64,000 bases of DNA from Alphaproteobacteria bacterium (GTDB lineage: Bacteria; Pseudomonadota; Alphaproteobacteria; Thalassobaculales; Thalassobaculaceae), in assembly GCA_024742275.1 (NCBI GenBank), contig JANSYS010000006.1:124001-188000 (forward strand). Reading direction: 5' to 3'. A program made the translations under genes and the position numbers. Within the stretch, counting starts at the first letter, position 1. Each line of letters begins with the position of its first letter. Below the pieces are notes generated by a model, which made no database searches, was not told where the DNA came from, and worked only from the letters and a program-made list of their open reading frames with translations. This document shows, in pieces, positions 30,734 through 49,121 of this stretch.

Positions 30734-30748
30734 GCGAGGATCGACGGC

Positions 30749-32107: not shown

Positions 32108-32153
32108 GCCAAGTTCTCCAGCCCGGCTCTCCCCCGGTCCGCGCGGCGGGGGC

Positions 32154-33371
32154 GTGCCCGTGAGCGTGCCGCCGCCGTTTCTGCCGTACGGCCGTCAATG
32201 CGTGGACGATGCGGATGTCGCTGCCGTGGCGGAGGTCCTGCGCGGCGATTTCCTGACGACGGGCCCGACGGTGGACGCTTTCGAGACGGCTTTCGCGACC
32301 GCCGTCGGAGCGCCGCACGCGGTCGCGTGTTCCAGCGGGACCGCCGGTCTGCACCTGGCGATGATGGCATTGGGAATAGGTCCCGGCGACGTGGTGGTGG
32401 TTCCGACCGTGACCTTTCTCGCCAGCGCCAACTGCGCCGTCTATGTCGGGGCCGAACCGGTCTTCGCCGATGTGGATGCTGAGACGGGTCTGACCACGCC
32501 GGCGCTGATCGCCGAGGCTGTGGCGCGGGCCGGGCGGGATCGTGTGAAAGCGATCGTCGCCGTTCACCTTAACGGCCATTGCGTCGACGTCGCCGCTCTG
32601 GCGGAGACCTATCCGGAGATCCCAATCGTCGAGGACGCCTGCCATGCGCTGGGTGCGACCGTCGGCGACGTTGCCGTCGGAGCCTGCGCCCATTCCGCCG
32701 TCACCATGTTCTCGACTCATCCGGTAAAGACCGTAGCCAGCGGCGAGGGGGGCGTGCTCTGCACCCCCGATCCGGTACTGGACGAGCGTCTGCGCCGGTA
32801 CCGCAACCACGGGATGGTTCGCGAGCCGGACCGTTTCGAGGATCGGGCCGCCGGTTTCGATGCATCCGGTGAGCCGAACCCCTGGTACTACGAGATGCCG
32901 GAGCCCGGGTACAACTACCGTCTGTCGGATATACATGCCGCCCTGGGACTATCTCAGATCGGCCGCCTCGGTGCGTTCGTCGCCCGCCGCCGCGAGCTGC
33001 GGCGGGAGTATGAGGCCGCTCTGTCTCGCTGTGGCCCACATGTGCGCGCACTGGTGACGGCGCCCGGCTGCGATCCGTCCTGGCACCTGTCGGTCGCCCT
33101 GATCGACTTCGTAGCGCTAGGGGTCGCGCGCGGTACGGTCATGCGCCGACTGCGCGAGGCCGGAATCGGTACCCAGGTCCATTACTTTCCGGTTCACCGT
33201 CAGCCCTACTACCGCCGAACCGTGGACACTCCCCCGCTCGTCGGGGCGGACGCGTACTACGAGCGATGTCTGTCCCTGCCGCTGTTTCCGGCGATGGTCG
33301 ACGGGGATGTCGATCGGGTGGTGTCCGAGCTGATGCGCGCCATCGGCAACGGCGGCGACGGGACCGGATGA
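32154..33371 (+). CDS. pseC: PseC-type aminotransferase
   Basis: A 405-residue PLP-dependent DegT/DnrJ/EryC1 aminotransferase. The PLP-binding Lys is in MFSTHPVKTVASGEGG, near residue 190, with DACHALG providing the pyridine-nitrogen Asp. The HPVKxxxxGEGG form is typical of PseC, which aminates the 4-keto sugar made by PseB on the way to pseudaminic acid (CMP-Pse), a surface or flagellin sugar. Start codons GTG 32154 and GTG 32160 are both possible. PseB follows 84 bases later; the later enzymes of the pathway are not in this window. Confidence 0.85.
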   Translation: MPVSVPPPFLPYGRQCVDDADVAAVAEVLRGDFLTTGPTVDAFETAFATAVGAPHAVACSSGTAGLHLAMMALGIGPGDVVVVPTVTFLASANCAVYVGAEPVFADVDAETGLTTPALIAEAVARAGRDRVKAIVAVHLNGHCVDVAALAETYPEIPIVEDACHALGATVGDVAVGACAHSAVTMFSTHPVKTVASGEGGVLCTPDPVLDERLRRYRNHGMVREPDRFEDRAAGFDASGEPNPWYYEMPEPGYNYRLSDIHAALGLSQIGRLGAFVARRRELRREYEAALSRCGPHVRALVTAPGCDPSWHLSVALIDFVALGVARGTVMRRLREAGIGTQVHYFPVHRQPYYRRTVDTPPLVGADAYYERCLSLPLFPAMVDGDVDRVVSELMRAIGNGGDGTG

Positions 33372-33455
33372 CGCCAACCTTGCCGCCGGCGTCGCGCGGC
33401 GGGACAATGCGGGGTGATTCGCGCGCCCTGGACGGGGTTTAGGCAGGAGGGCCGC

Positions 33456-34472
33456 ATGCGGCAATTCGATCAGAACTTTATCGACCTGAACGGCAAGACG
33501 GTGCTTGTCACCGGCGGCACCGGGTCGTTCGGCAAGCAGTTCATCCGCACCGTGCTGGCCAACTTCAAGACCCGGCGCTGCATCGTCTTTTCGCGAGACG
33601 AGCAAAAACAGTACGAGATGGGGCTCGAGATCCCCGTCGAGAAGCATCCGGAGATGCGTTACTTCCTCGGCGACGTCCGCGACGTCGACAGGTTGGAGAT
33701 GGCTATGCGTGGCGTCGACTACGTGATCCACGCCGCGGCGATCAAGCATGTGCCGACGGCCGAATACAATCCGTTCGAATGCGTGATGACGAATATCCAC
33801 GGCGCAGAGAACATCGTGAAGGCGGCGATCCGCAGCGGCGTGAAGCGGGTGATCGCACTCTCCACCGACAAGGCGGCCAATCCGATCAACCTGTACGGTG
33901 CCACCAAGCTCGCCTCGGACAAGATCTTCATTGCCGCCAACAACCTGTCCGGCGCCGGCGGCTGCACCTTCTCGGTCGTCCGATACGGCAACGTCATCGG
34001 CTCGCGCGGCAGCGTGATCCCCTTCTTCAAGCAGCTTATCGCCGACCGGAAGGACCATCTGCCGATCACCGACGAGCGCATGACCCGCTTCTGGATCACC
34101 CTGCAACAGGGCGTCAATTTTGTGCTCAGCAGTCTGGAGATGATGAAGGGCGGCGAGATTTTCGTGCCGAAGATCGCATCGATGAAGATCGTCGACGTCG
34201 CCGCCTGCCTCGGCCCAGGTCTGCCGCACAAGGTGGTCGGCATCCGACCCGGAGAAAAGCTGCACGAGGTGATGGTCCCGGAAGACGATGCCCGGACCAC
34301 CGTGGAGATTGACGACCGCTACATCATCCTCCCGTCCTTCTCCGAAGGTCCCCGAAAGATCTGGACGACGTCGGGCGCGAAACCGGTCGATCCGGAGTTC
34401 CGCTACGCCAGCGACAGCAACGACGAATGGCTGACGGCGGACGATCTCGAAGGGATGGTCGAAGCACTCTAG
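33456..34472 (+). CDS. pseB: UDP-N-acetylglucosamine 4,6-dehydratase (inverting)
   Basis: A 338-residue extended SDR enzyme that dehydrates and epimerises UDP-GlcNAc, the first step of pseudaminic-acid synthesis. The NAD(P) motif is LVTGGTGSFGKQF; the catalytic residues sit in LSTDKAANPINLYGATKLASDK (Thr-Asp-Lys and Tyr-x3-Lys). The segment RYGNVIGSRGSVIPFF is also typical. The ATG at 33456 is preceded by AGGAGGG (33444-33450), which decides the start over an in-frame ATG at 33414. Gene order pseC-pseB is the reverse of the more common pseB-pseC. Confidence 0.9.
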   Translation: MRQFDQNFIDLNGKTVLVTGGTGSFGKQFIRTVLANFKTRRCIVFSRDEQKQYEMGLEIPVEKHPEMRYFLGDVRDVDRLEMAMRGVDYVIHAAAIKHVPTAEYNPFECVMTNIHGAENIVKAAIRSGVKRVIALSTDKAANPINLYGATKLASDKIFIAANNLSGAGGCTFSVVRYGNVIGSRGSVIPFFKQLIADRKDHLPITDERMTRFWITLQQGVNFVLSSLEMMKGGEIFVPKIASMKIVDVAACLGPGLPHKVVGIRPGEKLHEVMVPEDDARTTVEIDDRYIILPSFSEGPRKIWTTSGAKPVDPEFRYASDSNDEWLTADDLEGMVEAL

Positions 34473-34624
34473 ACGCTTTCAGTCGCCCTCCGGTATCGGT
34501 AGTAGAGCCTGGATCGACGATCCCGACAGGCCGTCCAGACACCAGCGCATCACCTTGAAGCCGGTCAACGCGAGCGAATGCCGCCACGAACGGCAGCGTT
34601 TTCTTGTGTCGTGGCGCCAAGGTT

Positions 34625-34648
34625 AATCTCCGCAAGGTTGCGGAGATT
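34625..34648. repeat. 24-base near-perfect palindrome
   Basis: Two 11-base arms, AATCTCCGCAA and TTGCGGAGATT, are separated by only GG. It lies in a 212-base spacer after pseB and 36 bases beyond the DUF2842 stop. No T-run follows on either strand, so it is not a classic terminator; it could be a protein binding site or recombination site. Nothing else is visible in this spacer. Confidence 0.5.
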
Positions 34649-34684
34649 GTATCAAGCCTGCATGAGCGACAGAAGGGCGCCGGA

Positions 34685-34891
34685 CTAGGCTTCCTCGGAG
34701 CCCGGGTCCTGCCGGGCCCAGCCGATGACCGATACGGCCGGCCAGATCCAGGCGATACCGGCGACGAGGTAGTACACCGTCTCGGCCAAAACATGATTCG
34801 GGATGAAGTCTGCCAGCGTGACCGCGGCGATCACGTAGACAACAAGCCCGGCGATGATTGCCAAGCCGGCAAGGGGAGATCTCCAACGCAT
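34685..34891 (-). CDS. DUF2842 small membrane protein
   Basis: A 68-residue membrane protein of the alphaproteobacterial DUF2842 family, function unknown. Two membrane helices are predicted, at about 8-30 (LAGLAIIAGLVVYVIAAVTLADF) and 36-55 (LAETVYYLVAGIAWIWPAVSVIGW); the YYLVAGIAWIWP segment is the family hallmark. The ATG at 34891 was preferred over upstream in-frame starts because the extra residues (MPRYCVGIALGPTARYLAF) cross a set of direct repeats and are not family-like. It is divergent from the MFS gene. Confidence 0.65.
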   Translation of the reverse strand: MRWRSPLAGLAIIAGLVVYVIAAVTLADFIPNHVLAETVYYLVAGIAWIWPAVSVIGWARQDPGSEEA

Positions 34892-34922
34892 GAACGCGAG
34901 ATAGCGCGCGGTTGGCCCCAGG

Positions 34923-34953
34923 GCAATACCGACGCAATACCGGGGCAATACCG
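34923..34953. repeat. three direct repeats with exact 11-base period
   Basis: The 9-mer GCAATACCG occurs at 34923-34931, 34934-34942 and 34945-34953, each separated by two bases, so copies fall on the same face of the helix. The array is 32 bases upstream of the DUF2842 start and 200 bases upstream of the divergent MFS gene. It may be an operator array. Confidence 0.6.
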
Positions 34954-35153
34954 CAGCGGCTTCGGATCACGCGGCAACTGCCCTAAACCCGACCATCGAC
35001 AACGCTTCTGTCGTTCCTGAGAGAGTGGCCCGGATGGTCGTGTGATATCCGGGCTGCAGACAATGATTGACGGTCCCGTTTTCGCTTGGGCCCGTCCATC
35101 CGATGCCAGCCCCGACCCCGCAGGCCAGAAAGGCCCAAACGGAAAGGCCCGCC

Positions 35154-36437
35154 ATGCCCGCGCTCTCCCCGGCCGTTGTGGCCCTGCTTCTCAGTGTGGT
35201 GTTGCTGCAGGTAGCCAACGGCATGTTCGCCTCCCTGCTCGGCGTTCGGCTGGGGCTTGAGCCGGGAATCAATTCCCAGGTCGCCGGCTTGGTCATGTCC
35301 GGCTATTTCGTGGGGATGGTCCTGGGCTGCCTCGTCGTGCCGCGGATCATCGAGCAGGTCGGCCATGTCCGGGCCTTCGCGGCTCTGGTGTCGATCATGT
35401 CGGCCGCGTCGATCGCCCACGCGTTCTTCGTCGATCCCTGGTACTGGTTCGTCCTGCGGGTGGTCTACGGCGTCTGTGTCGCGGGCGCGTACATGGTGGC
35501 GGAATCCTGGCTGAACGGCGCGGCCAGCAACGATCAGCGCGGGTCGCTGCTGTCGATCTACATGGTCGCGCAGTATGTGGCGATGACCAGCGCCCAATAC
35601 CTCTTGAATCTGGCGCCTCCAACCAGCTTCGTGCTGTACGCCCTGGTCTCGATCCTGTTCAGCCTGGCGCTCGTGCCTTTGACCCTGTCGCGCTCGGCTG
35701 GATCCGGCTCGGTCGCCCGCTCGGCGCTAAGCTTCAAGCAGCTCTATGAGATTTCGCCGCTCGGGATGGTCGCCAGCTTCGGTAGCGGCATCCTGAACGG
35801 GGCGCTGTTCGGGGCCGCTTCGGTCTTCGCCACCACCATCGGCTTCACCGTGTCGGAGGTGGCGATCTTCGTGTCCGCCATTCTGATCGGCGGTCTCGTG
35901 GTGCAGTGGCCGATCGGCAAGGCGTCGGACCTGTTCGACCGCCGCACGGTGATCGCCGCGTCGCTCGGCATGACGACCGTGCTCGGCCTGCTGCTCGCGT
36001 TCCTGCCGTTTCCGGGCTTCTGGATCTATGTCGCGATGGCCGGGCTCTATGGCGGATTGTGTATGACGATCTATTCGCTCGCGGTCGCCCATACCAACGA
36101 CTATGTGGATTCGACCGATCTGGTCGCCGCAAGCGCCGGACTCCTGTTGGCGTTCGGGATCGGCGCCGTGGTCGGTCCGATCGCCACCACGTCGGCGATG
36201 CAGTGGGTTGGAAACTGGGGGTACTACGGCATCGGCGCCGGGGTGTCGGCTGTGGTCGGCCTGTTCACCGTCTGGCGCATGAAGCAACGCTCCGCCCTGC
36301 CGGTCGACGAGCAGGGACCGTGGGTCTCGGTCTCGCGCACGACGCCCGTCGCTGCCGAACTCGATCCGCGCTGGGAGCCGGAAGAGGCCGATGGGGAGGA
36401 CGAAAAGGATGCGGCGCCGACCCCGGCGCCGGGGTGA
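35154..36437 (+). CDS. MFS transporter (YcaD-like)
   Basis: A 427-residue major facilitator with twelve predicted membrane helices, from PALSPAVVALLLSVVLLQ to the WGYYGIGAGVSAVVGLFTV helix, and the usual central cytoplasmic loop (after LSRSAGSGSVARS). The AYMVAESWLNGAASNDQRGSLLSIYM region resembles the YcaD/UMF2 subgroup, whose substrates are unknown. The C-terminal tail is acidic (EEADGEDEKDA). ATG 35154 is preceded by GGAAAGG; an upstream ATG at 35067 would add a proline-rich non-membrane leader. No neighbouring gene tells the substrate. Confidence 0.85.
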   Translation: MPALSPAVVALLLSVVLLQVANGMFASLLGVRLGLEPGINSQVAGLVMSGYFVGMVLGCLVVPRIIEQVGHVRAFAALVSIMSAASIAHAFFVDPWYWFVLRVVYGVCVAGAYMVAESWLNGAASNDQRGSLLSIYMVAQYVAMTSAQYLLNLAPPTSFVLYALVSILFSLALVPLTLSRSAGSGSVARSALSFKQLYEISPLGMVASFGSGILNGALFGAASVFATTIGFTVSEVAIFVSAILIGGLVVQWPIGKASDLFDRRTVIAASLGMTTVLGLLLAFLPFPGFWIYVAMAGLYGGLCMTIYSLAVAHTNDYVDSTDLVAASAGLLLAFGIGAVVGPIATTSAMQWVGNWGYYGIGAGVSAVVGLFTVWRMKQRSALPVDEQGPWVSVSRTTPVAAELDPRWEPEEADGEDEKDAAPTPAPG

Positions 36438-36449
36438 CGAGATATCGGC

Positions 36450-37397
36450 TTAGGCCGCTTCCGCACCGTAGTAGGTGGTGACCACATGGGTCGCCTGGGC
36501 AAAGAACAGCCAGCGTTCGACCACGACGCCGACCGACCCGGACACCGCCGCCAGCAGGGCAGGGAACCAGCCGCCCGCGGTCCCGATCGCGCCGGCCACC
36601 ATGAGCAGGGCAAAGGGAACGACGATGCCGGTGACCGCAGCGATCGTGCGCAGTTTCGGGACGTGCTTCCGGGCGACGCGGTACCCCATCTCCCGCATGA
36701 CGAAGTTCTTCGAGGTCGACGGGCCCTCAAGCATCCTCACCCGGCCGAGTTGGCCGAGGCCGGTGGCGGTCCCGGAGGTGGTCACCGGCGCATCGGTATC
36801 GATCCGCGACCAGTACACCCACTTCACCGCCGCGGCCGCGGATCCGGCGACTATCGTCGACCAGATCAGGACGAAAGCGTCGCCGCCGAACGCGCAGACC
36901 AGCACCGCCATCCAGAGCCCACCCGTGTAGAGGGAGAGCAGCAGGTAGCCCGGCAGCACCAATGGATGGTGCCACTGCCGGATGGTGCGCAGCGATGCGT
37001 AGATCATGCCGGTACAGACCACGGTCGCGACCGCGCCGCCGCTGGCCAGGATTCCGAAGACACCCCAAATGCCTCGCGCGTCCTCGGCCAGAATCCACCC
37101 CAAGGCGAATACTCCCGCGGGCAGGTATGTGATCACCGCCGCAAGACCTTCGCGGGAGAGCCACGACGAGCGCCACTGCGACATCGCCCTCCATGCTCGT
37201 TCCGGATGGCCGAGATGGAAGGTGGAGGCGAGCAGGCCGGCCGTGATCAGCCCAAGAGCGAGCGCGAACCCGACCAGACCGGACCAGAGACCGGCGGGGA
37301 CCAGTCCGGCAGCGCCGGCCAAGCCCATCAGGAACAGCAGACCATAACCGGCACCGGACGCTGTGGTGAAGAAGATGACGGAGGATGCGGGATGCAT
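36450..37397 (-). CDS. soeC: membrane anchor subunit of a DMSO-reductase-family enzyme (SoeC-like)
   Basis: A 315-residue DmsC-type membrane protein with about eight helices that exchanges electrons with the quinone pool. A conserved stretch STFHLGHPERAWRAMSQWRSSWLSREGL sits in an early loop. It is the last gene of the operon encoding the molybdenum subunit and the iron-sulfur subunit. In sulfite dehydrogenase SoeABC this subunit passes electrons from sulfite to quinone. DmsC of a DMSO reductase is the alternative, but the operon's exporter and missing Tat signal favour Soe. Confidence 0.75.
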   Translation of the reverse strand: MHPASSVIFFTTASGAGYGLLFLMGLAGAAGLVPAGLWSGLVGFALALGLITAGLLASTFHLGHPERAWRAMSQWRSSWLSREGLAAVITYLPAGVFALGWILAEDARGIWGVFGILASGGAVATVVCTGMIYASLRTIRQWHHPLVLPGYLLLSLYTGGLWMAVLVCAFGGDAFVLIWSTIVAGSAAAAVKWVYWSRIDTDAPVTTSGTATGLGQLGRVRMLEGPSTSKNFVMREMGYRVARKHVPKLRTIAAVTGIVVPFALLMVAGAIGTAGGWFPALLAAVSGSVGVVVERWLFFAQATHVVTTYYGAEAA

Positions 37398-37413
37398 GGC
37401 TCTCTCTCCTCCC

Positions 37414-38214
37414 TCAGCGCGACAGCATCGCGTCTACCCACGCGAGGAAGCCGTTACCTTCCGCGCCGGACGGCACAGCATCCGCCGCTTCCGCCGCCAG
37501 CGACTCAAGCCTGGTCGGCGCGCCGGTTGCGCCCGCTGTGTTCTTGCGCGGCCGGGGAGGCAGGTACTTGTTCGTGGGCCTGTACCCCATCTCCGGCATG
37601 AGATCGTATCCGCCGCGCTCGGAGACGAGTTTCGACACGGCGCTGTCGGCGTCTCCGAGATCGCCGAAATGGCGCGCGCCCACGGGACAGGTCGACACGC
37701 AGGCCGGAACCCGGTCCACCTCCTCAAGGTTCTCGTTGTAGATCTTGTCGATGCAGAGCGTGCATTTCTTCATCACGCCGTCGGTATAGTCGTACTCGCG
37801 GGCGCCGTAGGGGCAGGCCCAGGAGCACAGCTTGCAGCCGATGCACGTCTCCGGGTTGACGAGAACGATGCCGTCCTCCTCGCGCTTGTAGCTCGCGCCG
37901 GTAGGACAGACGGTGACGCAGGCCGGCTCTTCGCAATGCAGGCAGGAGCGGGGGAAGTGAACCGTCCGGCTCTCGGCACCGTCGCCGGCCTCGTAGGTGT
38001 GGATCCGGTTGAACCAAACGCCCCAGGCGCCGGCATCCTCGCCATCCGCGCTTTCGCTGCCGGAATAGGCGTTCCAATCGGTCATCGGGGCCGAATGGCC
38101 GCCCGAGTTCCACTCCTTGCAGTTCACCGCGCAGGCATGGCAGCCGACGCAGATATCGAGGTCGATAACGAGGCCGAGCTTCTTCGCGGGCGCCTTCGTG
38201 GGAAGCGAGGTCAT
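37414..38214 (-). CDS. soeB: four-cluster iron-sulfur subunit (SoeB-like)
   Basis: A 266-residue ferredoxin-type electron transfer subunit. Four cysteine groups for [4Fe-4S] clusters are visible: CVGCHACAVNC, CLHCEEPACVTVCPTGA, CIGCKLCSWACPYGA, and CTLC with CVSTCPVGA. It would carry electrons from the molybdenum subunit to the membrane anchor. Its ATG overlaps the end of the catalytic gene by 4 bases, and the anchor gene follows 16 bases later. The protein has no export signal, consistent with a cytoplasmic-facing complex. Confidence 0.8.
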   Translation of the reverse strand: MTSLPTKAPAKKLGLVIDLDICVGCHACAVNCKEWNSGGHSAPMTDWNAYSGSESADGEDAGAWGVWFNRIHTYEAGDGAESRTVHFPRSCLHCEEPACVTVCPTGASYKREEDGIVLVNPETCIGCKLCSWACPYGAREYDYTDGVMKKCTLCIDKIYNENLEEVDRVPACVSTCPVGARHFGDLGDADSAVSKLVSERGGYDLMPEMGYRPTNKYLPPRPRKNTAGATGAPTRLESLAAEAADAVPSGAEGNGFLAWVDAMLSR

Positions 38215-41108
38215 TCGGCGGCCTCCCCGGAGATCTTGGCCCCGTACCGCAGGGTGTCGGGTCCCGCCTTGCCGCCTGGCGGTTTCGGAAGCGGCGCGAA
38301 ACGCGGCTCCGCCTCGGTTCCCGGGGCGTCCGCCTCGGCGCGTTCTATGCGGACGCGCAGATCGTACCAGGCCGCCTGACCCGTGACCGGGTCCGCGTTC
38401 GCGTAGCGGTATCCGCCCCCCTTCGGTGGTAGCAGCTCCGAAATCAGATGGTTCAACAGGAAGCCTTTGGTCGCCTCGGGCGCTTTCGGGTCGAGCGCCC
38501 AGGTGCCTTTGCGCTTACCGATGGCGTTCCAGGTCCAGACCGTGTCCGGGTTCACCCCTTCCATCAGCTTGACCTGCGCCTTGATGCGACCGTGGTGGGA
38601 CGTGACGTGGACCCAGTCGTCCTCGGCGATGTCGAGCTCTTCGGCCCGCTCGCGGCTCATGTAAAGCTTGTTCAGGCCGTGGATCTGTCGCAGCCAGGCG
38701 TTCATCGAGCCCCAGGAATGATACATGGCGGCCGGGCGTTGGGTGATGGCGTGCATGGGGAACTTGTCCAGTTCCTCGCCCAGCATCTCGCCCTCGAAGG
38801 GTGCGTACCAGAAGGGCAGCGGGTCAAAATAGGTCTTCACCCGCTCGCGGTGATGTTCCGGGGGAACCACGTCGCCGTGGCCCTCGGCCGCGAGGCGGAA
38901 GGTTTGCAGCGGCTCGGAGTAGATCTGATGGATGATCGGGTTCGCTGCGCCGATCAGACCGAGCGACACTGCCTTTTCCAGATAGTCCTTGTTGGCGTGC
39001 TTGAAGTAGCGCTCCGACGGCGCGAATTCATGGCGCCAGAAACACTGGTTGTCGACATAGCGCTGGAGCTGGTCCGGGTTTGGCTCGCCCTTGCCTTCCT
39101 TGGTGCCGTCCGCGCCGCGGAAGCCGGCAAGCGGTCCGACGCCGGGCGCGCGCTCATGGTTGGCGAGGTAGTCCGGGTAGCCGCCCGGATACTTCGCCGA
39201 TCCGTCTTCGTTGGTCAGGCCCGGCAGGCCGAGACGGACGCCGATCTCGATCAGCGCGTCCTGGAACGGTCGGACATCACGGTCCGGCTTGACCACCGGT
39301 TGGCGGATCGAGTCCGCCGCGCCGTCTGCGTCGCAGATCGGCCGGTCCAGCAGCGAGATGCAGTCCCAACGCTCCAGATAGGTGGTGTCCGGCAGAATCA
39401 GATCAGCGTAGGCGACCATCTCGGACGCGTAGGCGTCGGAATAGATGATCTTCGGGATCTTGTACTCGCCGGTCGCCGGGTCCTTGTCGGTCAGCATCTT
39501 CATCGTCCCCGACGAGTTCATCGTCGAGTTCCAGCTCATGTTCGCCATGTACATGAACAGGACGTCGATGGGATACGGATCGCCGGCCCAGGCGTTCTGG
39601 ATCACCATGTGCATAAGCCCGTGGGCGGCCACCGGCGCGTCCCAGGAATACGCCTTGTCGATGCGCCTGGGCGTTCCGTCGGCCTCGATGAGCAGATCGG
39701 CAGGGGAGGTGGGGAAGCCCAGCGGCGGACCGCCCATCGGCTTGCCGGGCGTTATCTGATTGGCCTTGCCTGCCGGCTTGAGCGGCGGCGGTACCGGACG
39801 GGGGAACGGGGGCTTGTAGCGGAAGCCGCCCGGCGCATCGATCGAGCCGAGCAGAAGCTGGAGCAGGTGGAGAGCGCGGCAGGTATGGAAGCCGTTGGAA
39901 TGGGCCGAGATGCCGCGCATGGCGTGCATCGCCACCGGCCGGCCGATCATTTTCTCGTGCCGTCGACCGGCCCAATCCGTCCAGGGCTGATCGATCACCA
40001 CTTCCTTCTCGAAGGCGGCATGGGCCAACTCCGCGGCGATCCTCCGGATGCGGTCCGCGTCGAGACCGCAGCGTTCGGCCACCGCGTCGGGCGCGTACTC
40101 GTCCGACGTGTAGCGATCGTATAGAAGCTGGAAAGCCGGGACCGCCTTGCGGCCGTCCTCCAGCGTATGCTCGCCGACCAGAGCCGGGGCGACCTCCGCC
40201 GTCATCGCATTGGCCAGCGCGCCCGCCTTTTTGTCGAAGCAGAGCGGCGCCCCGTCGGCATCGCGCGCAAATAGCCCGTGGTCTGCCGCTCCCGGATCCT
40301 GGATTACCAGCCAAGGGGCGTTGGTGTAGCGCACGAGGTAATCCAGATCGACGCGGCGAGCCTTCAGCAACTCGTGCATCAGTGCCATGACAAACAGGCC
40401 GTCGGTACCGGGCCGGATGCCGACCCACTCGTCGGCGATCGCGGAATAGCCGGTCTTCACCGGGTTGACCGAGACGAACTTGGCGCCCCGCGTCTTGATC
40501 TTTCCGAGGCCGGTCTTGATCGGATTGCTGTCGTGATCCTCGGCGACGCCGAACATCATGAAGTATTCGGTGTGCTCCCAGTCCGGCTCACCGAACTCCC
40601 AGAACGAGCCGCCGATCGTGTATAGCCCGGCGGCGGCCATGTTCACCGAACAGAACCCGCCGTGGGCGGCGTGGTTCGGTGTCCCGAACTGGCTGGCCCA
40701 CCAACCGGTCAGCGACTGCGACTGATCGCGCCCGGTGAAGAACGCAAGCTTGCGGGGGTCGGTATTGCGTACGCTGCCGAGCCACTCGGCCGCAGTCGAC
40801 AGCGCCTCTTCCCACTCGATCTCCTTGAACTCACCGGAGCCGCGCGGCCCGACCCGTTTGAGCGGCTTGGACAGCCGCGCGGGCGAGTAGTGCTGCATGA
40901 TCCCAGCGGATCCCTTGGCGCACAGCACACCCTTGTTCACCGGGTGGTTCTTGTTCCCCTCGATGTATCGGATCTTGCCGTCTTTGAGGTGAACCTTGAT
41001 GCCGCAGCGGCAGGCGCACATGTAGCAGGTCGTGTAGGCGACCGAGTCGGAGACGGTCGGCGACGTTTCTACGACCTCGCGCACCGTCTCCAAGGGATTT
41101 GAAATCAT
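38211..41108 (-). CDS. soeA: molybdopterin oxidoreductase catalytic subunit, probable sulfite dehydrogenase SoeA
   Basis: A 965-residue DMSO-reductase-family molybdoenzyme. Near the N-terminus Cys28, Cys31, Cys35 and Cys63 (CYMCACRC...GVLCAKG) would bind a [4Fe-4S] cluster; a bis-MGD molybdenum centre is expected. There is no twin-arginine signal, unlike DmsA or polysulfide reductase, which fits cytoplasmic SoeABC, the enzyme that oxidises sulfite to sulfate and reduces quinone. Context supports it: a TSUP anion exporter and rhodanese lie upstream. The start is ATG 41108; an in-frame TTG at 41171 would add 21 Cys-rich residues. Substrate is inferred, not proven. Confidence 0.75.
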   Translation of the reverse strand: MISNPLETVREVVETSPTVSDSVAYTTCYMCACRCGIKVHLKDGKIRYIEGNKNHPVNKGVLCAKGSAGIMQHYSPARLSKPLKRVGPRGSGEFKEIEWEEALSTAAEWLGSVRNTDPRKLAFFTGRDQSQSLTGWWASQFGTPNHAAHGGFCSVNMAAAGLYTIGGSFWEFGEPDWEHTEYFMMFGVAEDHDSNPIKTGLGKIKTRGAKFVSVNPVKTGYSAIADEWVGIRPGTDGLFVMALMHELLKARRVDLDYLVRYTNAPWLVIQDPGAADHGLFARDADGAPLCFDKKAGALANAMTAEVAPALVGEHTLEDGRKAVPAFQLLYDRYTSDEYAPDAVAERCGLDADRIRRIAAELAHAAFEKEVVIDQPWTDWAGRRHEKMIGRPVAMHAMRGISAHSNGFHTCRALHLLQLLLGSIDAPGGFRYKPPFPRPVPPPLKPAGKANQITPGKPMGGPPLGFPTSPADLLIEADGTPRRIDKAYSWDAPVAAHGLMHMVIQNAWAGDPYPIDVLFMYMANMSWNSTMNSSGTMKMLTDKDPATGEYKIPKIIYSDAYASEMVAYADLILPDTTYLERWDCISLLDRPICDADGAADSIRQPVVKPDRDVRPFQDALIEIGVRLGLPGLTNEDGSAKYPGGYPDYLANHERAPGVGPLAGFRGADGTKEGKGEPNPDQLQRYVDNQCFWRHEFAPSERYFKHANKDYLEKAVSLGLIGAANPIIHQIYSEPLQTFRLAAEGHGDVVPPEHHRERVKTYFDPLPFWYAPFEGEMLGEELDKFPMHAITQRPAAMYHSWGSMNAWLRQIHGLNKLYMSRERAEELDIAEDDWVHVTSHHGRIKAQVKLMEGVNPDTVWTWNAIGKRKGTWALDPKAPEATKGFLLNHLISELLPPKGGGYRYANADPVTGQAAWYDLRVRIERAEADAPGTEAEPRFAPLPKPPGGKAGPDTLRYGAKISGEAAE

Positions 41109-41253
41109 TACCTCGTCCGGGCTCTGTAAGCATGGCGCGCAAGCATCGCAGTCGGCGGCATGAGCGGTCAAGCGACGGTCGGGCTGGGATGCTCCGCGAG
41201 CTGCCCCATGTCGACCCTCGTCGAAATGGGGTCAGCTCGGATGTCCGCCCGAG

Positions 41254-41736
41254 CTAGGTCAGGGCGTCGATCTCGGCGTCGGTCAGGGAGCCCGGAACGA
41301 TCGTGATCGGTATCCGCAGCCGGTCTGCCGCCTTGGTCATGAGGTGACTGACCAGCGGACCGGGATTGTCCGACTTCGGCGCCGCCGCCAGCACGAGGAT
41401 GGAGATCGACGGCTCTTCCTCTATCAGCTTCAGCAACTCGTCCCGGGCGGTCCCCTCGCGGATGTAAAGCACCGGGATCGACCCGGAAAGGTCCAACACC
41501 TGCTGGCTCACTCGGTCGAGCAGTTGTTCAGCCTCCTGACGCGCCTCCTCGCGCATCAGTTCCCCGACGCCCATCCAGTGCTGGAACTCGATCGGCTCGA
41601 CGCTGCGGAACAGTGCTACCCGGCCTCCGGTATGCTTGGCCCGCTGGCAGGCAAACCGCAGCGCCACCTTCAGTTCCTCGCTGTCGTCCACGACGACGAG
41701 GAATACGCGGTGGCTCTCGTCCGACGTCTCGCTCAT
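41254..41736 (-). CDS. universal stress protein (UspA family)
   Basis: A 160-residue single-domain UspA-fold protein. The N-terminal strand VFLVVVDDSEELKVALRFACQRAKHTGGRVALFRSV and the C-terminal LRIPITIVPGS strand fit the family, but the usual ATP-binding GxxGxxxxxxxxxGS pattern is degenerate, so nucleotide binding is uncertain. It lies between the TIGR02186 gene (33 bases) and soeA (145 bases) on the same strand, and is probably part of the sulfur operon. Confidence 0.85.
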   Translation of the reverse strand: MSETSDESHRVFLVVVDDSEELKVALRFACQRAKHTGGRVALFRSVEPIEFQHWMGVGELMREEARQEAEQLLDRVSQQVLDLSGSIPVLYIREGTARDELLKLIEEEPSISILVLAAAPKSDNPGPLVSHLMTKAADRLRIPITIVPGSLTDAEIDALT

Positions 41737-41769
41737 ATCCGCTCGACCCTGATCTCGCGATCCAATCGC

Positions 41770-42522
41770 TCAACCGACCTTACGACCGATCCACGCCGCA
41801 AGCCACCCCGCGGCCACGGCAATGATGATCGCGAGCACACCATAGGCGGCGGAGTTGGTGTGCGCGAACAGGAAAATGTCGGCGCCTATGCCCGTCTTCG
41901 ACACCACCAGCGGCGTCGTCTGCGCATGAACGGCGGAACCGTCGCGCAGATAGTAGACAGCGACGGTGTAGGTGCCGATCGCCACATTGGCGGGCAGATG
42001 TATGCGGGTGCGAAACAGTCTGTTGGACAGCACCGTGACCGGCAGGACGTCGTCGGCATAGAGGCCGGCGGCCCGTTTGTTGCGGATCAGGCCCGCTCGG
42101 AATGCGGCGGCCGTCGCCGCATCGATCGCCGCGTCGTCGGGGACCATGGCGACATTCTCGATGCCGATCTGCTGTCGCTGTCGGATATCGGGTGTCGCGA
42201 CGCTCTCGAGCGGTTTGGTCGCCGCCACTGCATAGAATGCCGGCACGTTTGCGAAGGTCACGGCCTCGACATTCGCCCAGACCCCCACGACCCGCTCCTT
42301 GCGCCGGACCGTCACGTCGCCACGCGGTCCCGTCACCGTGACCACGATCTCGCCCTCGCCTTCGACGGCTCCGAACAGCAGGACATCGGCTCCGGTGAAA
42401 CCCGTGGTTATCGCCACCAGATGGTCGCTCAGATCGGCGACGAGATCCTGCTGCGCGCGTGCCGGCATGTCGCCGAACAGGCCGGCGGCCATGGTGAGGA
42501 AGAGGAGCAAGCGGGCGGCCAT
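41770..42522 (-). CDS. TIGR02186-type membrane-anchored periplasmic protein
   Basis: A 250-residue protein with a signal peptide (MAARLLLFLTMAAGLFGDMPARA), a periplasmic beta-rich domain (HLVAITTGFTGADVLLFGAVEGEGEIVVTVTGP) and a C-terminal membrane helix (YGVLAIIIAVAAGWLAAWIG). This is the plan of the TIGR02186 family, function unknown, that accompanies TSUP transporters in many proteobacteria. It starts 2 bases after the TSUP stop, so the two are translated together. A role in sulfite or sulfonate export is inference from this pairing. The start ATG 42522 is clear from the signal peptide. Confidence 0.8.
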   Translation of the reverse strand: MAARLLLFLTMAAGLFGDMPARAQQDLVADLSDHLVAITTGFTGADVLLFGAVEGEGEIVVTVTGPRGDVTVRRKERVVGVWANVEAVTFANVPAFYAVAATKPLESVATPDIRQRQQIGIENVAMVPDDAAIDAATAAAFRAGLIRNKRAAGLYADDVLPVTVLSNRLFRTRIHLPANVAIGTYTVAVYYLRDGSAVHAQTTPLVVSKTGIGADIFLFAHTNSAAYGVLAIIIAVAAGWLAAWIGRKVG

Positions 42523-42524
42523 GG

Positions 42525-43445
42525 TCAATGCCCGTCGTCGAGGTTGATCGAAAAGAGATCGGACGGGGTCGCCACCAGATCGTAGCCGAGCTTGGCGCAG
42601 ACTCCGAGCACCATCACGGCAAGCAGGCCGCGCAGTTCCTCTCCCCTCAGGGAACCGGCGAAACGGCTGCCGATCTGGGCGCCGACGACCGCGCCGGCCA
42701 GCAGCATGAGGGCGAGCACCACATCGACGGTCTGCGTGTTCACGGCCTGGAGGAAGGTCACGTTGGCGGTCACGAAGATGATCTGGAACAACGAGGTTCC
42801 GACGACCACGCCCGTCGGCATGCCGAGCAGGTAGATCATCGCCGGCACCATGATGAAGCCGCCGCCCACGCCCATCAAGGCGGCCAGGATACCGACGAAA
42901 AACCCGATCCCGAGCGGCAGAAGCGCGCTGATGTAAAGCTTCGAGCGCCGGAAGCGCATCTTCAGCGGCAGGCCATGGAACCAGGTGTGCTGATGCAGTT
43001 TCGTGCGGCGCGGCGTACTGGAGCGCGCCTTGACGATGGCCCGCGCGCTCTCGTTCAACATCAGAGCACCAATGATTCCGAGGAAAATCACGTAGCATAG
43101 CTTGATCGTAAGATCGATCTGTCCGACCTCGCGCAGGGCGGCGAACGCCCATACGCCGACGGTGGAGCCGACGAAGCCGCCGACCATAAGCACCGCGCCC
43201 ATCTTGAAGTCGACGTTGCCGCGGCGCCAATGGGCGATAACCCCGGACACCGACGAGGCGACGATCTGATTAGCCTCCGTTCCGACCGCGACGGCGGGGG
43301 GTACGCCGATGAAGATGAGGAGCGGCGTCATCAGAAACCCGCCGCCCACGCCGAACAGTCCGGACAGGAACCCCACCATGCCGCCCATCCCCAGAATGAG
43401 GAATAAGTTCACCGATATTTCGGCGATGGGCAGGTAGATGTGCAT
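42525..43445 (-). CDS. TSUP (TauE/SafE) family anion exporter
   Basis: A 306-residue membrane protein with about eight to nine helices in two repeats, each with a glycine-rich GGGFLMTPLLIF / GGGFIMVPAMIY motif after LFGVGGG / LMGVGGG, which identifies the TSUP family. Members export sulfite, sulfoacetate or related organosulfur anions. It leads the minus-strand operon running through TIGR02186, USP and SoeABC. Exporting excess toxic sulfite beside a sulfite dehydrogenase makes sense, but the substrate is not shown. No firm promoter was found in the AT-richer spacer upstream (43446-43633). Confidence 0.85.
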   Translation of the reverse strand: MHIYLPIAEISVNLFLILGMGGMVGFLSGLFGVGGGFLMTPLLIFIGVPPAVAVGTEANQIVASSVSGVIAHWRRGNVDFKMGAVLMVGGFVGSTVGVWAFAALREVGQIDLTIKLCYVIFLGIIGALMLNESARAIVKARSSTPRRTKLHQHTWFHGLPLKMRFRRSKLYISALLPLGIGFFVGILAALMGVGGGFIMVPAMIYLLGMPTGVVVGTSLFQIIFVTANVTFLQAVNTQTVDVVLALMLLAGAVVGAQIGSRFAGSLRGEELRGLLAVMVLGVCAKLGYDLVATPSDLFSINLDDGH

Positions 43446-43633
43446 CAGGCGCCCGATCCGTGGGGGTCAAGAGGCGGGAAGAGTTCTTGGTCAGTATCTG
43501 CAGCGGGGTAACCGTCGCCGTAAACAGGAGCGCGCCCCACCGCAAATGCGGGGGACGACGAAACATCCCTACACCCTAACGTCGGATCTTGAAAGGTTTA
43601 TTTATTTGAGGGCCTTAGCCGCGCAATTGACGA

Positions 43634-43960
43634 TCATGCACCGGGTTCTATCGGATGTCCCGACCGGTGCCAGCCGATGATGCCGTCCCGCAGCCGGTAA
43701 AGCTGCCGCTGCTCGCCGCTGTCGATCATCCTGTCCGTGGCATGACCGCAACGCACACCGCTCTTGCAATGGAAGACCACCTTCTTGTCAGCCGAGAGTT
43801 CGACGTCGGCCGGGTCGAAGCCGGACAGAGGGACCAACCGGGAACCGGGAATCCGGGCCTGGGCGAACTCGGACTCCTCGCGCACGTCGATGAGGTCGAC
43901 CGATCCGTCCGCCAACCATTCGGCAAGAGTCTCGGCATCGATGAATTCGGGGCTGGGCAT
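43634..43960 (-). CDS. single-domain rhodanese-like protein
   Basis: A 108-residue rhodanese domain. The loop FHCKSGVRCGHATD carries the catalytic Cys and the CxxGxR pattern of active sulfurtransferases, and DVREESEFAQARIPGSRLVPL is the family N-terminal motif. It could move sulfane sulfur from thiosulfate or persulfides. ATG 43960 is preceded by GAGGAA; the frame extends upstream but without rhodanese homology. It lies 188 bases upstream of the sulfur operon on the same strand and divergent from hutI. Confidence 0.85.
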   Translation of the reverse strand: MPSPEFIDAETLAEWLADGSVDLIDVREESEFAQARIPGSRLVPLSGFDPADVELSADKKVVFHCKSGVRCGHATDRMIDSGEQRQLYRLRDGIIGWHRSGHPIEPGA

Positions 43961-44089
43961 TGGGGCGTTCCTCGTTTCGGGGCATGTCTGGCGGACAAGG
44001 TGGCGCGGACGGGGGCACATCACAAGCCTTGGCAGGGCGCGACGACACCGCCTAGTCTGCCGGCGAACCGCGGGTGAGGGTTGGCAGAC

Positions 44090-45313
44090 ATGTGGGACGC
44101 GCTCTGGATCGACGTGGACATCGCCACCTGCACGGTGCCGGGAGAGTACGGGCTGATCGAGAACGGAGCGATCGGCGTCGAGGACGGCCGCATCGTCTGG
44201 GTCGGACACCGGGAAGACCTGCCGGGGCCGGTGGAGGAACTTGCCGCCGTCCTGCATCAGGGCGAGCAGAAATGGATCACGCCGGCCCTGATCGACTGCC
44301 ACACCCACCTCGTGCATGGCGGCCAGCGTGCGGGCGAATTCGAGTTGCGGTTGTCCGGGGCGAGCTATGCCGACATCGCCCGCGCCGGCGGCGGTATCCT
44401 ATCCACCGTCGCCGCGACCCGCGCGGCCGGCGAGGTTGATCTTCTCGCATCGACCCTCCGGCGCTTGTCGCCGCTGATCGCCGAGGGGGTGACCGTCGTC
44501 GAGATTAAATCCGGATACGGCCTCGATCTTGATACTGAATTGAAGATGCTTCGCGTCGCGCGGGCGGTGGAGCGGGAAGCGCCGGTCGATGTGATCACAA
44601 CCTTCCTCGGCGCCCATGCGGTGCCGCCGGAGTTCGCGGGCGATGCCGACGGCTATATCGATTTCATGTGCGACGAGGTACTGCCGGCGGCGGTGGAACA
44701 GGATCTGGTCGACCAGGTCGACGCCTTCTGCGAGACGATCGCCTTCTCCCCGGCCCAGGTCGAGCGGGTGTTCGAGGCGGCGAAGCTCTTCAACCTGCCC
44801 GTCAAACTGCATGCCGAGCAGCTTAGCGACTACGGGGGAGCGGAACTGGCCGCCCGATACGGAGCGCTTTCGGCGGACCATTTGGAGTACCTGTCGCCGA
44901 CCGGCGTTCGGGCCATGGCCGCGGCCGGGACCGTTGCCGTGCTGTTGCCCGGCGCCTTCTATATGTTGGGTGAAACCCGGCATCCTCCGATCGGCCGGTT
45001 GCGGGATGCGGGCGTGCCGATTGCGCTTGCGACGGACAGCAATCCGGGCTCGTCGCCGATGACGTCGCTTCTGCTGACCATGAACATGGGGTGTGTCCTG
45101 TTCGGACTCGCGCCTGTCGAGGCCCTTGCGGCCGTCACCCGCAACGCGGCCCAAGCCCTGGGGCTCGCGGATACGCGCGGGACGTTGGAGGTTGGGAAGA
45201 TCGCGGACTTCGTGATCTGGGACATCGAGGAACCCGCGGAACTGGCCTACCGGATCGGCTTCAATCCCTGCGTAGAGGTTATCCGGGCTGGAGCGCCGAC
45301 TCTGGTTCGGTGA
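44090..45313 (+). CDS. hutI: imidazolonepropionase
   Basis: A 407-residue metal-dependent amidohydrolase that opens imidazolone-5-propionate to N-formimino-glutamate in histidine breakdown. The metal motif [28 protein letters not shown], a central [15 protein letters not shown] and the [21 protein letters not shown] segment are all family features. ATG 44090 is the likely start; a TTG at 44081 sits too close to the GAGGG site. No other hut gene is in the window, so it stands alone. Its 3' end overlaps the convergent ABC ATPase gene by 35 bases. Confidence 0.95.
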
Positions 45314-46079
45314 TCGGATGCCGGCTCGCCGCCAACGCACGCTCGATCATTCCCCGGGCTTCCAGGAACTCGGCGGACAACCGCAACTTCTCGTCGCGCG
45401 GGTGGGCGAACGGGGCGACGATCTCGGCGACCACCCGGCCGGGGCGCGGCGAGAGGACAACCACTCTGTCGGCCAGGAAGAGAGCCTCCTCAACATCGTG
45501 GGTCACCAGGATCACGGTGGCGGATGTGCGCTGGCGCACGCTTTCCAACAGCGCCTGCATGTCCCGGCGGGTCAGGCTGTCCAGCGCCCCGAACGGCTCG
45601 TCCATCAGCAGTAGGTCCGGTTCCGGCGCCAGAGCCCGGGCCAGGGCCGCGCGCTGTGCCATACCGCCGGACAGTGTTGCCGGGAGCGCACGGGCGAAGT
45701 CGACGATTCCGACGGCCTCGAGCCAGTCTCTCGCGCGGCGGTCGCCTTCGGCACGCGGCACCTGCCGTTCGTCCAAGCCGAAGCGCACATTGGCGGCGAT
45801 GTCGAGCCAGGGGAAAAGGGCCGGTTGCTGGAACACCATGCCCCGGCGCGGATCCGGACCGTCTACGGCGGTGCCGGCGGCGAAGACTCTGCCGGTGGAG
45901 GCGGGCACCAGTCCGGCGATCAGCCGCAGCAAAGTCGACTTGCCGCAGCCGGACGGGCCGACCAGGGCGACGAATTCGCCATCGGCGACCGTCAGGTCGA
46001 GAGGCCCGAGGACGTCCAGTGCGCCGAACCGATGCGCGACGGCGGAAAGCGCGACGGCCGGTGCCGCTGCGTTGGTCAT
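45279..46079 (-). CDS. NitT/TauT-type ABC transporter ATPase
   Basis: A 266-residue ABC ATPase of the nitrate/sulfonate/taurine class. Walker [15 protein letters not shown]-loop FQQPALFPW, signature [15 protein letters not shown], Walker [13 protein letters not shown] and switch VTHDVEEAL are intact. No permease or substrate-binding gene is adjacent, so it either serves a system encoded elsewhere or is a leftover. The start ATG 46079 overlaps the end of the glutathione S-transferase gene by 4 bases, indicating they are co-expressed. The nearby sulfur operon makes a sulfonate (SsuB/TauB) role tempting but unproven. Confidence 0.88.
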
Positions 46080-46669
46080 GCCGGAACCGGGTCCAGGTTC
46101 AACTCGGCCTCGCAACGCGCGATCCAGGACGAGAGAGCCGGCCGGGCGGCGAGATCGAATCCGCCCTGGCCCGCCATCCGAGTATAGGCGACCAGCGCAA
46201 TGTCGGCGATCGTGAGGCTCGCGCCGACGAGGAACGTCCGGTCAGCCAACGCCCGGTCCATCGCATCCAGCGCCGCCTCGCCGCGCTCGACCCGCCAGCT
46301 CTCCCGGGTTTCCTTCGGTTGGCGCCGATAGACCATGTGGAAGCGGCAGACGGCGATGTAGGGTTCGTGGCTGTATTGTTCCCAGAACAGCCATTCCGCG
46401 ACCTTGGCCCGGTCGAAGGCGTCGCCCGGAGCGAGGTCAGTGCCCTCGGACAAGTATTGCAGGATGGCGTTCGACTGGGAGATCGCCCGGCCGTCGTCCA
46501 GCACCAGGACCGGCACCTGTCCCATCGGGTTGAGAGCGAGGAATTCGGGGGTCCGGCTCTCCCCTTTCAGGATATCGACCGCTGCCCAGTCGTATGACAG
46601 GCCGAGACGGTCGGCCGTGTATTTGACCTTCAGGCAGTTGCCCGAGGCGAGGTCGCCAAGGATTCGCAT
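46076..46669 (-). CDS. glutathione S-transferase family protein
   Basis: A 197-residue cytosolic GST. The thioredoxin-like N-terminal domain begins RILGDLASGNCLKVKYTADRLGL, with the cis-proline motif NPMGQVPVLVLDDG and the glutathione gamma-Glu-binding ISQSNAILQYL. An all-helical C-terminal domain ends RPALSSWIARCEAELNL. The substrate is unknown. It overlaps the ABC ATPase downstream and lies 26 bases after the 346-residue unknown gene, all on the same strand. Confidence 0.92.
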   Translation of the reverse strand: MRILGDLASGNCLKVKYTADRLGLSYDWAAVDILKGESRTPEFLALNPMGQVPVLVLDDGRAISQSNAILQYLSEGTDLAPGDAFDRAKVAEWLFWEQYSHEPYIAVCRFHMVYRRQPKETRESWRVERGEAALDAMDRALADRTFLVGASLTIADIALVAYTRMAGQGGFDLAARPALSSWIARCEAELNLDPVPA

Positions 46670-46695
46670 GTCTTGCTCCGAGAAGAAGAGGCGTC

Positions 46696-47736
46696 TCAGA
46701 CCTCGTCGAGCGACGGGGCCGTGCGCTGAATATGGCGGATCTTATCAAGACCCGGAACCATCTCCGCGACCAGCCAGTCGGCACGCTTGTTCGGGCTACC
46801 GCTCTCGCCGGGGAAGTCTTCCTGCCAGCGGATCATCTTGACGGCCAGCCCGCAGAGGATGCCACCGATCGTATGGTGATTGCTGGATACGAGACGGCGC
46901 AGACGGGCGTAGCGGTATTTGCAGAGATCCTTCCAGAACTCCCGACTCGCCTCGTCGAAAGCCTTGAAGCGCTGCATGGTGAACGCGATCGCCTCCTCGA
47001 CCTGTACGTCCACGATATCGCAATGGCGCATCGCGTCCTTGTTGTGCCGCAGGTGGGAATTGCGGATCCCCTCGTCGGTCCACGCCTTGAACCTTTCGAA
47101 GGTCGGACGGATCTCTTCCATGTATCGTTTGAAGTAGGATAACGACAGGAAGATGTCCCCATAGTCCTCCAGAAATCCTGGGATCTCGTCGACCTCGATA
47201 TCGAGGGCGTCGGAGATTGCCTTGATGCGTTTCAAGGCCTCTTCCCGGTCGACGCCGCGGAACATGTCGAAGATTTCGGTGGCCGACGATACGTCCTTGG
47301 TATCGTCGCCGAATACCTTTTGCACGAGCGGTCGGGTGAAGACGCGCATGTACTCCGTCAGCTTCGCCTGCATCTGAGGCGACAGACGGAGGTGCTCGGC
47401 CTGGTCGATCTTGATGTTGTGGGACCGTAAGGTGAGCCGGAGCGAGTACACGTCGAAGCTCGGCGCCTGGGCCAGGGCCTCGATGATCGTTCGGTCGTCC
47501 TCGAATGTCGGGGCGTTTGCGTCGAAGAATGTGGAAAGCGCATTGATATCGATCTGCCCGGAGCCCGCGCGGTTGTCCTTGAACAACTCGACCACCGTTT
47601 CCAGGCGAGCGTTCTTCACCAGTCGGGTTCGGCGCATGCCCGGAGTCTGCAAGGGAATGATCGCCAGCGGAAGGATATGCAACGCATCCTTCTCTTCCGC
47701 GGTGTATCCTTCCGTGTCGATGGCCTCCGCCGACAT
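46696..47736 (-). CDS. conserved-looking protein of unknown function
   Basis: A 346-residue protein that I do not recognise. It is soluble, charged and mostly helical, without signal peptide or membrane helix. The first 30 residues carry a short hydrophobic stretch (DALHILPLAIIPLQTPGMRR). The middle is rich in Asp/Glu, and the second half has several His and aromatic residues (LRHNKDAMRHCDIVD, SSNHHTIGGILCGLAVKM). Codon use and G+C match the host genes. It leads a minus-strand set with the GST and ABC ATPase and is divergent from the PilZ gene, with a 162-base shared spacer. Confidence 0.8.
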   Translation of the reverse strand: MSAEAIDTEGYTAEEKDALHILPLAIIPLQTPGMRRTRLVKNARLETVVELFKDNRAGSGQIDINALSTFFDANAPTFEDDRTIIEALAQAPSFDVYSLRLTLRSHNIKIDQAEHLRLSPQMQAKLTEYMRVFTRPLVQKVFGDDTKDVSSATEIFDMFRGVDREEALKRIKAISDALDIEVDEIPGFLEDYGDIFLSLSYFKRYMEEIRPTFERFKAWTDEGIRNSHLRHNKDAMRHCDIVDVQVEEAIAFTMQRFKAFDEASREFWKDLCKYRYARLRRLVSSNHHTIGGILCGLAVKMIRWQEDFPGESGSPNKRADWLVAEMVPGLDKIRHIQRTAPSLDEV

Positions 47737-47898
47737 CGGTCCCCCTAAAATGCCGGTAAATTGCTATGTTTCCGGCTCAAGCTCCGCACCTTTATCAGAC
47801 CGACCGGGGCGCGAACAACTGTGACGCATCGCGGAAACCCTCGGCCGGACGTCGCGCAACACGACATCTCAGGGTATCATGTGACGTGGGAGGACCGG

Positions 47899-48297: not shown

Positions 48298-48324
48298 TCG
48301 TTTCGGTGCGTGGTCCGGTATGGA

Positions 48325-48355
48325 CCGGGTGGGAGGTTGATGCCGTCCCACCCGG
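48325..48355. terminator. bidirectional hairpin terminator
   Basis: CCGGGTGGGA (48325-48334) pairs perfectly with TCCCACCCGG (48346-48355) around an 11-base loop. It lies between the convergent PilZ and pirin genes and could end both transcripts; a moderately T-rich stretch (GACTTTCTTG) follows on the + strand. Confidence 0.6.
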
Positions 48356-48378
48356 GTAGACTTTCTTGCGGCCGACGC

Positions 48379-49083: not shown

Positions 49084-49121
49084 CTTAGTCTCCTTTCATC
49101 GCGGAGTTTGTGGACTCATTC

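Follow-up and report, generated by a model that had tools for sequence, protein, structure and literature searches.

What becomes of sulfite, a toxic intermediate formed when sulfonates and other sulfur compounds are degraded, in a cell that may carry the means both to oxidise it and to expel it? The question is raised by a row of seven genes on the minus strand (43960-36450) of a 64,000-nucleotide stretch of DNA from a marine alphaproteobacterium, hereafter the window, in whose positions all coordinates are given. In order, the row encodes a rhodanese, a TSUP transporter, a PF09608 (TIGR02186-like) protein, a universal stress protein (Usp), and the three subunits SoeA, SoeB and SoeC of a molybdoenzyme (Table 1). 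Open reading frames (ORFs) and DNA confirm this row as an earlier note had described it, with the rhodanese 188 bases upstream of TSUP and spacings of 2, 33, 145, -4 and 16 bases from there down to SoeC. Our best explanation, held with reasonable confidence, is that a SoeABC sulfite:quinone oxidoreductase and a separate TSUP-PF09608-Usp module stand in one gene row, giving the host a likely sulfite oxidase beside a probable sulfite-exporter module.

With sulfite as the presumed substrate of both SoeABC and TSUP, SoeA would oxidise cytoplasmic sulfite to sulfate at a bis-molybdopterin guanine dinucleotide (bis-MGD) molybdenum centre, and electrons would pass through four [4Fe-4S] clusters in SoeB and from SoeC to quinone. 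TSUP, in the separate alphaproteobacterial module, would most likely export sulfite; PF09608 would form a periplasmic beta-sandwich anchored next to it, and the small Usp would probably regulate or stabilise the transporter. In this relative of Thalassobaculum a single row holds both modules, and we propose that sulfite can thereby be both oxidised and expelled. The evidence consists of gene content and order, protein families, phylogeny, cysteine sets, the recurrence of the linkage and the neighbours of two orthologues.

Two modules in one gene row

PF09608 is present in 189 of the 289 alphaproteobacterial genomes sampled, and all 84 of its hits in a 349-genome sample of the phylum fall in Alphaproteobacteria. 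Among the best 80 of 326 loci, which are near kin of the window's PF09608 and not a random draw, 72 have TSUP directly upstream of PF09608, 77 have Usp directly downstream of it, and nine have SoeA near. The core of the module is TSUP-PF09608, with Usp as a frequent third gene and SoeABC as an occasional addition. Eight of the 80 loci are without TSUP: two of them (L233 and L237) start at or near PF09608, a third (L273) has an aminotransferase upstream, and the upstream ORFs of L267 and L230 gave no Pfam family and no NCBIfam match at E 1e-40, hence no replacement exporter. The window's PF09608 protein shares 87% identity with that of a Thalassobaculaceae metagenome-assembled genome (MAG) and 85% with that of Thalassobaculum litoreum DSM 18839, which, together with the 95% identity of SoeA to its T. 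litoreum counterpart, marks the host as related to Thalassobaculum.

The earlier note had included Usp in a sulfite detoxification unit. Since Usp follows PF09608 in 77 of the 80 loci, only nine of those with SoeA near, it is not specific to sulfite oxidation. ATP-binding universal stress proteins carry the motif G2xG9xG(S/T), which the window's Usp lacks; of 106 rows of its homologues, 5 have it. Among these homologues (L106-L145, L205-L284), some of which come from the same genomes, the 101 other rows lack it, and a GPGPL signature is strongly kept.

How often, then, does the module meet SoeABC? SoeA matches at E 1e-60 or better occur in 75 of the 289 genomes, a count that includes partial genes at contig ends and one match with internal stops (G077). 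The latter (G077:C149:2953-3918), 50% identical to SoeA with eight internal stops (five TGA, three TAG), is a probable decayed copy or misassembly. PF09608 is carried by 71 of the 75 SoeA genomes (exceptions G064, G070, G176 and G210) against 118 of the 214 without SoeA (Fisher p = 1.8e-11, with kinship and genome size ignored). In at least 17 of the 71 genomes, from 11 families, no more than 1.2 kb separates SoeA from PF09608, with positions taken by hand and from maps (G000, G107, G226, G122, G011, G056, G208, G274, G178, G087, G200, G160, G086, G195, G080, G105 and G071). Uniform placement in 4 Mb would give 0.094 linked genomes, about 180-fold fewer than observed. This count overlaps with that of the 80 loci, four SoeA-near loci (L235, L248, L262, L273) being contigs of G107, G226, G071 and G200. 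The order TSUP-PF09608-Usp-SoeABC is kept in 14 of the 17, although the contig of G087 ends before SoeC; the deviant loci are G200, where TSUP is missing upstream, G105, which lacks Usp, and G160, which also lacks Usp and has the TSUP-PF09608 pair divergent from SoeABC. In G200 (L135, G200:C152) phosphoenolpyruvate mutase and phosphonopyruvate decarboxylase genes, which belong to phosphonate synthesis, lie upstream of PF09608-Usp-SoeABC.

Several observations weigh against our explanation. Of the 71 genomes with both genes, 52 show no linkage and two (G077, G222) are unplaced; some of the 52 have SoeA and PF09608 on different contigs, where linkage is not fully excluded, and the PF09608 position is missing for six of the 71, in four of which the SoeA region shows no PF09608. 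Conversely, a search at E 1e-60 gave no SoeA in 118 of the 189 genomes that carry PF09608. T. litoreum, in its draft genome, has no complete operon TSUP, the rest of the row being kept: the roughly 305 bases from rhodanese to PF09608 could not hold a TSUP gene, and the leader and an apparent TSUP start remain (L206:7680-8010 compared with window 43633-42522), followed by PF09608, Usp and SoeABC. As to sulfite itself, no Xsc (a sulfonate enzyme treated below) exceeds its cut-off in the window's genome (best 271.3 against 676.4 bits), and the flanking ORFs scanned at two SoeABC loci, L092 and L098, hold no sulfonate gene.

With so many PF09608 genomes lacking SoeA, the TSUP module evidently serves some purpose apart from SoeABC, and it might move an anion other than sulfite. 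On this rests an alternative that we consider unlikely but worth weighing: SoeABC oxidises sulfite, TSUP-PF09608-Usp exports or takes up a different sulfur anion, or else an organic acid, and the two are neighbours by descent within one lineage, with no task in common. It draws further support from the 145-base gap between Usp and SoeA, and from a second TSUP gene in the genome, 72% identical to the first, which lies after an acetyl-CoA synthetase gene (C59:100625-101524) without PF09608. The tree speaks on both sides. On a FastTree phylogeny of 103 SoeA rows (144 before rows sharing an identical 200-residue stretch were dropped), 21 of the 22 rows labelled as linked fall within one 42-row part, which means that some of the recurrence is inheritance; yet the label needs 12 changes, at least seven of them by starred branches, and it is an under-call, because many rows come from loci with 1.5 kb of flank. 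Beyond the labelled rows, six genomes of the f160 group (L147-L152) carry PF09608 2.7-3.0 kb from SoeA, and in one of the six, at locus L188, TSUP is present with two other ORFs between PF09608 and SoeA. Together with the excess over uniform placement, these points weigh against the alternative.

Operon breakup in relatives, which the note had raised against itself, is indeed widespread, but linkage in 11 families far exceeds chance. The idea of a single detoxification unit is only partly supported, the TSUP-PF09608(-Usp) genes occurring mostly without SoeABC. What the gene row shows is two modules that have repeatedly come together, not a unit built for one purpose.

Identity of the molybdoenzyme

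The identification of the three-subunit enzyme as SoeABC is well supported by its sequence features. SoeA starts at the ATG at 41108, with a TTG at 41171 upstream also possible; with either start, pattern and hydropathy scans find no twin-arginine translocation (Tat) motif and no transmembrane-like segment, which bears out the earlier statement that the catalytic subunit has no Tat signal. Its cysteine set CxxCxxxC..CAKG (Cys 28-31-35-63) corresponds to one [4Fe-4S] set. SoeB has 16 cysteines in four sets (22-25-28-32, 91-94-99-103, 124-127-130-134 and 151-154-172-176), which would leave room for four [4Fe-4S] clusters, and SoeC has eight hydrophobic segments by hydropathy and is of the NrfD/DmsC type. 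The SoeA set, the 16 cysteines of SoeB, the eight segments of SoeC and the missing Tat signal all fit a SoeABC-type complex, one that would face the cytoplasm and very likely oxidises toxic sulfite inside the cell.

Could the enzyme instead be a cytoplasm-facing reductase of polysulfide, thiosulfate, tetrathionate, dimethyl sulfoxide or arsenate? Twenty-five NCBIfam models match SoeA, none of them near its cut-off. The best is PhsA (NF012032), and SoeC matches the Pfam DmsC family, which could be taken as hints of a reductase; the PhsA score, however, is 218.3 bits against a cut-off of 694, the DmsA/YnfE model TIGR02166 gives 149.5 against 777.7, and the TtrA model NF011567 gives 116.5 against 1750. 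With the Tat motif also absent, a DmsABC identity was rejected, and the TtrABC and PhsABC identities miss their equivalog cut-offs.

Phylogeny agrees. In a 31-row tree, a branch at 100/100 sets the 18 SoeA rows apart from DmsA, PhsA, Ttr and Arx/Arr-like rows; the clustering with reductases that the earlier note had named as a refutation did not appear for these rows, PsrA not being among them. Its outside rows include Escherichia coli DmsA and FdnG, two Proteus rows that join DmsA, Proteus PhsA, three Ttr rows, one Ttr-like archaeal row and four Arx/Arr-like rows. Of these, the Ttr rows come nearest to SoeA, at 89/82, which is a further point in favour of a reductase; the order of the outside rows is unsure because several of their branches are long. 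DmsA, FdnG and Pseudomonas TtrA are named by record annotation and PhsA by a score over its cut-off (1292.7 bits); the remaining outside rows are named from under-cut-off scores and gene neighbours, 'Arx' and some 'Dms' being labels of our own, and the Ttr rows are likewise under the TtrA cut-off (1413.2 and 1215 against 1750). The PhsA row came from a Proteus mirabilis record, a PhsA search of 200 genomes at E 1e-100 having given no match. An earlier quick tree, which also took in four molybdoenzymes from the genome itself, suffered from very long branches: SoeA formed one side of a branch at 99, and two of the four (L033, L035) stood beside it at 87, which we read as a long-branch effect; all four were excluded from the 31-row tree. 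On family scores and tree, a reductase identity was rejected, and we regard it as very improbable.

SoeA is 95% identical to its T. litoreum counterpart. In the phylum sample, 45 of 349 genomes have a match at E 1e-60 or better, always at 51% identity or more, and 13 of these genomes lie outside Alphaproteobacteria; orthologues overall range from 51 to 95%. The 40 plasmid records listed also contain other molybdoenzymes, and these share 23-31% with SoeA. At L068, L070 and L105, one recurring cluster, an ORF of about 770-780 residues that adjoins SoeC and is convergent to it also matches the SoeA profile and appears to be a second molybdoenzyme-like gene.

The neighbours of two orthologues, which also argue against a reductase, bring sulfite into view; they are two loci and not a count over all SoeABC loci. 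In one genome (G154, SoeA 61% identical), probably a member of the Rhodobacteraceae to judge from gene order, the order is MocR-type regulator, Xsc, Pta, SoeABC, with Xsc at 933.8 bits against a cut-off of 676.4. On plasmid p4 of Azospirillum brasilense, SoeABC (69% identical) lies between SauS (810.5 bits, cut-off 600), which is accompanied by a CoA-ligase-like pair, and Xsc (988.9 bits), in what its genes mark as a sulfoacetate-type cluster. The product of such a cluster is sulfite. It is because of these sulfite-releasing sulfonate genes that we link the function of SoeABC to sulfite.

The PF09608 protein

The earlier note named the third protein of the row TIGR02186. The kinship holds, PF09608 being matched far over its cut-off, but the protein reaches 205.6 bits on NCBIfam TIGR02186 and misses the curated threshold of 255.25, so PF09608 is the safe family name. 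Its AlphaFold2 model, built from a 64-row alignment, has a mean predicted local distance difference test (pLDDT) score of 78.8 and a predicted template modelling (pTM) score of 0.67, with ten-residue pLDDT means of at least 80 at 51-200 and below 50 at 8-41 and 211-218. It consists of a beta-sandwich and a C-terminal helix (224-249). Together with the hydrophobic, signal-like N-terminus, the model points to a periplasmic domain with an anchor in the inner membrane.

A Foldseek search with the model gave nothing at E 0.001 or better, the best being arrestin-like N-lobes at 5.1e-3. Further fold comparison gave a best Z of 9.3 over 94 residues, followed by a tail of macroglobulin-type and immunoglobulin-like domains, and a PDB sequence search up to E 10 returned one match, at E 1.4. 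The modelled fold thus appears to be a generic beta-sandwich, a common fold that gives no function. No conserved cysteine was seen in the family, which disfavours a thiol or metal-cysteine role. No paper was found under the family names TIGR02186, PF09608 or alph_Pro_TM.

Because it follows TSUP directly in 72 of the 80 loci, PF09608 is a candidate partner of a sulfite exporter. We tentatively suggest, as a possibility that still falls somewhat short of even chances, a dedicated periplasmic, membrane-anchored beta-sandwich partner that is produced along with alphaproteobacterial TSUP sulfite exporters and gates or completes them. The T. litoreum genome bears on this. One TSUP, 74% identical, lies on the contig that bears the row, in a stretch syntenic with that of the second copy in the window's genome, and there is also a weak 42-bit match; since PF09608 persists there without its neighbour, either the partner model is weakened or PF09608 can serve the second TSUP. 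If the suggestion is true, the recurrent joining of PF09608 to SoeABC would supply a first function for a family widespread in Alphaproteobacteria.

The gene row, its surroundings and known systems

Table 1. Features of the gene row and its immediate neighbours in the window.
Feature	Position	Strand	Evidence
ABC ATPase	45279-46115	-	best NCBIfam match a taurine ATPase model, under cut-off (224.4 vs 357)
Imidazolonepropionase HutI	44081-45313	+	468.2 bits
Rhodanese-domain protein, 108 aa, CKSGVR loop	43634..43960	-	PF00581 54.3 bits (cut-off 22.2)
Rhodanese-TSUP leader	43446..43633	-	conserved blocks in three Thalassobaculaceae and GC-rich hairpin (alignment, folds)
TSUP/TauE-SafE transporter, 306 aa, 8 hydrophobic segments	42525..43445	-	PF01925 179.9 bits (cut-off 32.6); hydropathy
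PF09608 (Alph_Pro_TM, TIGR02186-like), 250 aa	41770..42522	-	PF09608 252.6 bits (cut-off 24.5)
Universal stress protein (Usp), 160 aa	41254..41736	-	PF00582 39.6 bits (cut-off 24)
SoeA, molybdopterin catalytic subunit, 965 aa	38211..41108	-	Pfam Molybdopterin 74.6 bits (cut-off 24)
SoeB, 266 aa	37414..38214	-	PF13247 (Fer4_11) 86.8 bits (cut-off 26.2)
SoeC, DmsC/NrfD-like membrane anchor, 315 aa	36450..37397	-	PF04976 (DmsC) 49.5 bits (cut-off 22.3)
Terminator-like hairpin, GC-rich, 18 bases past SoeC	36412..36431	-	pattern scan only

A further alternative, which we find scarcely credible, is that the row comprises more than one transcription unit and that the rhodanese has nothing to do with it. 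In its favour, just 6 of the 17 linked loci (the window's own counted) have a rhodanese homologue ahead of TSUP, and a gap with a conserved leader precedes TSUP. Against it, gaps of only 2 and 33 bases separate TSUP from PF09608 and PF09608 from Usp, in an order kept in other families, and SoeA and SoeB overlap by 4 bases; co-transcription of the row is presumed. Three near sequences, those of the window, of T. litoreum and of the MAG (L205), share the conserved blocks and GC-rich hairpin of the leader, and the T. litoreum stem differs by apparently one paired change. Terminator-like hairpins number eight in the region against a shuffle mean of 3.8, hence weak evidence; a sigma-70 pattern scan gave no promoter-like site there (shuffles 1.3), and an Rfam search of 30000-50000 gave no match up to E 1. 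Elsewhere in the genome, contig C54 carries a Sox-type set with SoxY, a SoxA/TsdA-type cytochrome and a YeeE-type sulfur transporter, as well as a 5'-nucleotidase-family protein that is probably SoxB by position and an Oxidored_molyb protein that is probably SoxC.

How does this row compare with known systems? In Ruegeria pomeroyi DSS-3, we take SPO3561 to be xsc. The soeABC genes of this organism are SPO3559-3557, adjoining pta (SPO3560) and with tauR (SPO3562) close by (PMC4334477). The MocR-xsc-pta-soeABC order of G154 resembles this arrangement; the window's genome differs from it in having no Xsc over the cut-off. SoeABC in Alphaproteobacteria is accompanied by different sulfur gene sets, lineage by lineage.

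SoeABC of Allochromatium vinosum and Aquifex aeolicus is described as having a SoeA with bis-pyranopterin guanine dinucleotide (bisPGD) molybdenum and one [4Fe-4S] cluster, a SoeB with four [4Fe-4S] clusters and an NrfD-like SoeC, SoeAB being held to face the cytoplasm (PMC8076601). The window's enzyme has the same three-subunit make-up, a likeness drawn from description and not from direct sequence comparison; it differs in that its genes follow a TSUP-PF09608-Usp module. In the parts of the literature on SoeABC with TauE that were available, this gene row is not described, and no literature was found on an operon of TauE, universal stress protein and rhodanese.

TauE of Cupriavidus necator is a sulfite exporter placed beside sulfite oxidation in a model (cited in PMC5373536). 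The window's TSUP belongs to the same named family, but is followed by PF09608, which in the 349-genome phylum sample occurs only in Alphaproteobacteria. Ruegeria sp. TM1040, Sinorhizobium meliloti and Sphingomonas parapaucimobilis have, like the window, TSUP followed by a TIGR02186-family protein; unlike the window, these three pairs have no annotated Usp and no SoeABC within the stretches of about 10.6 kb that were read. Set beside these systems, the window holds an enzyme of known kind and a new example of a known system. The useful lead is PF09608, which this locus gives a genomic reason to study in sulfite handling.

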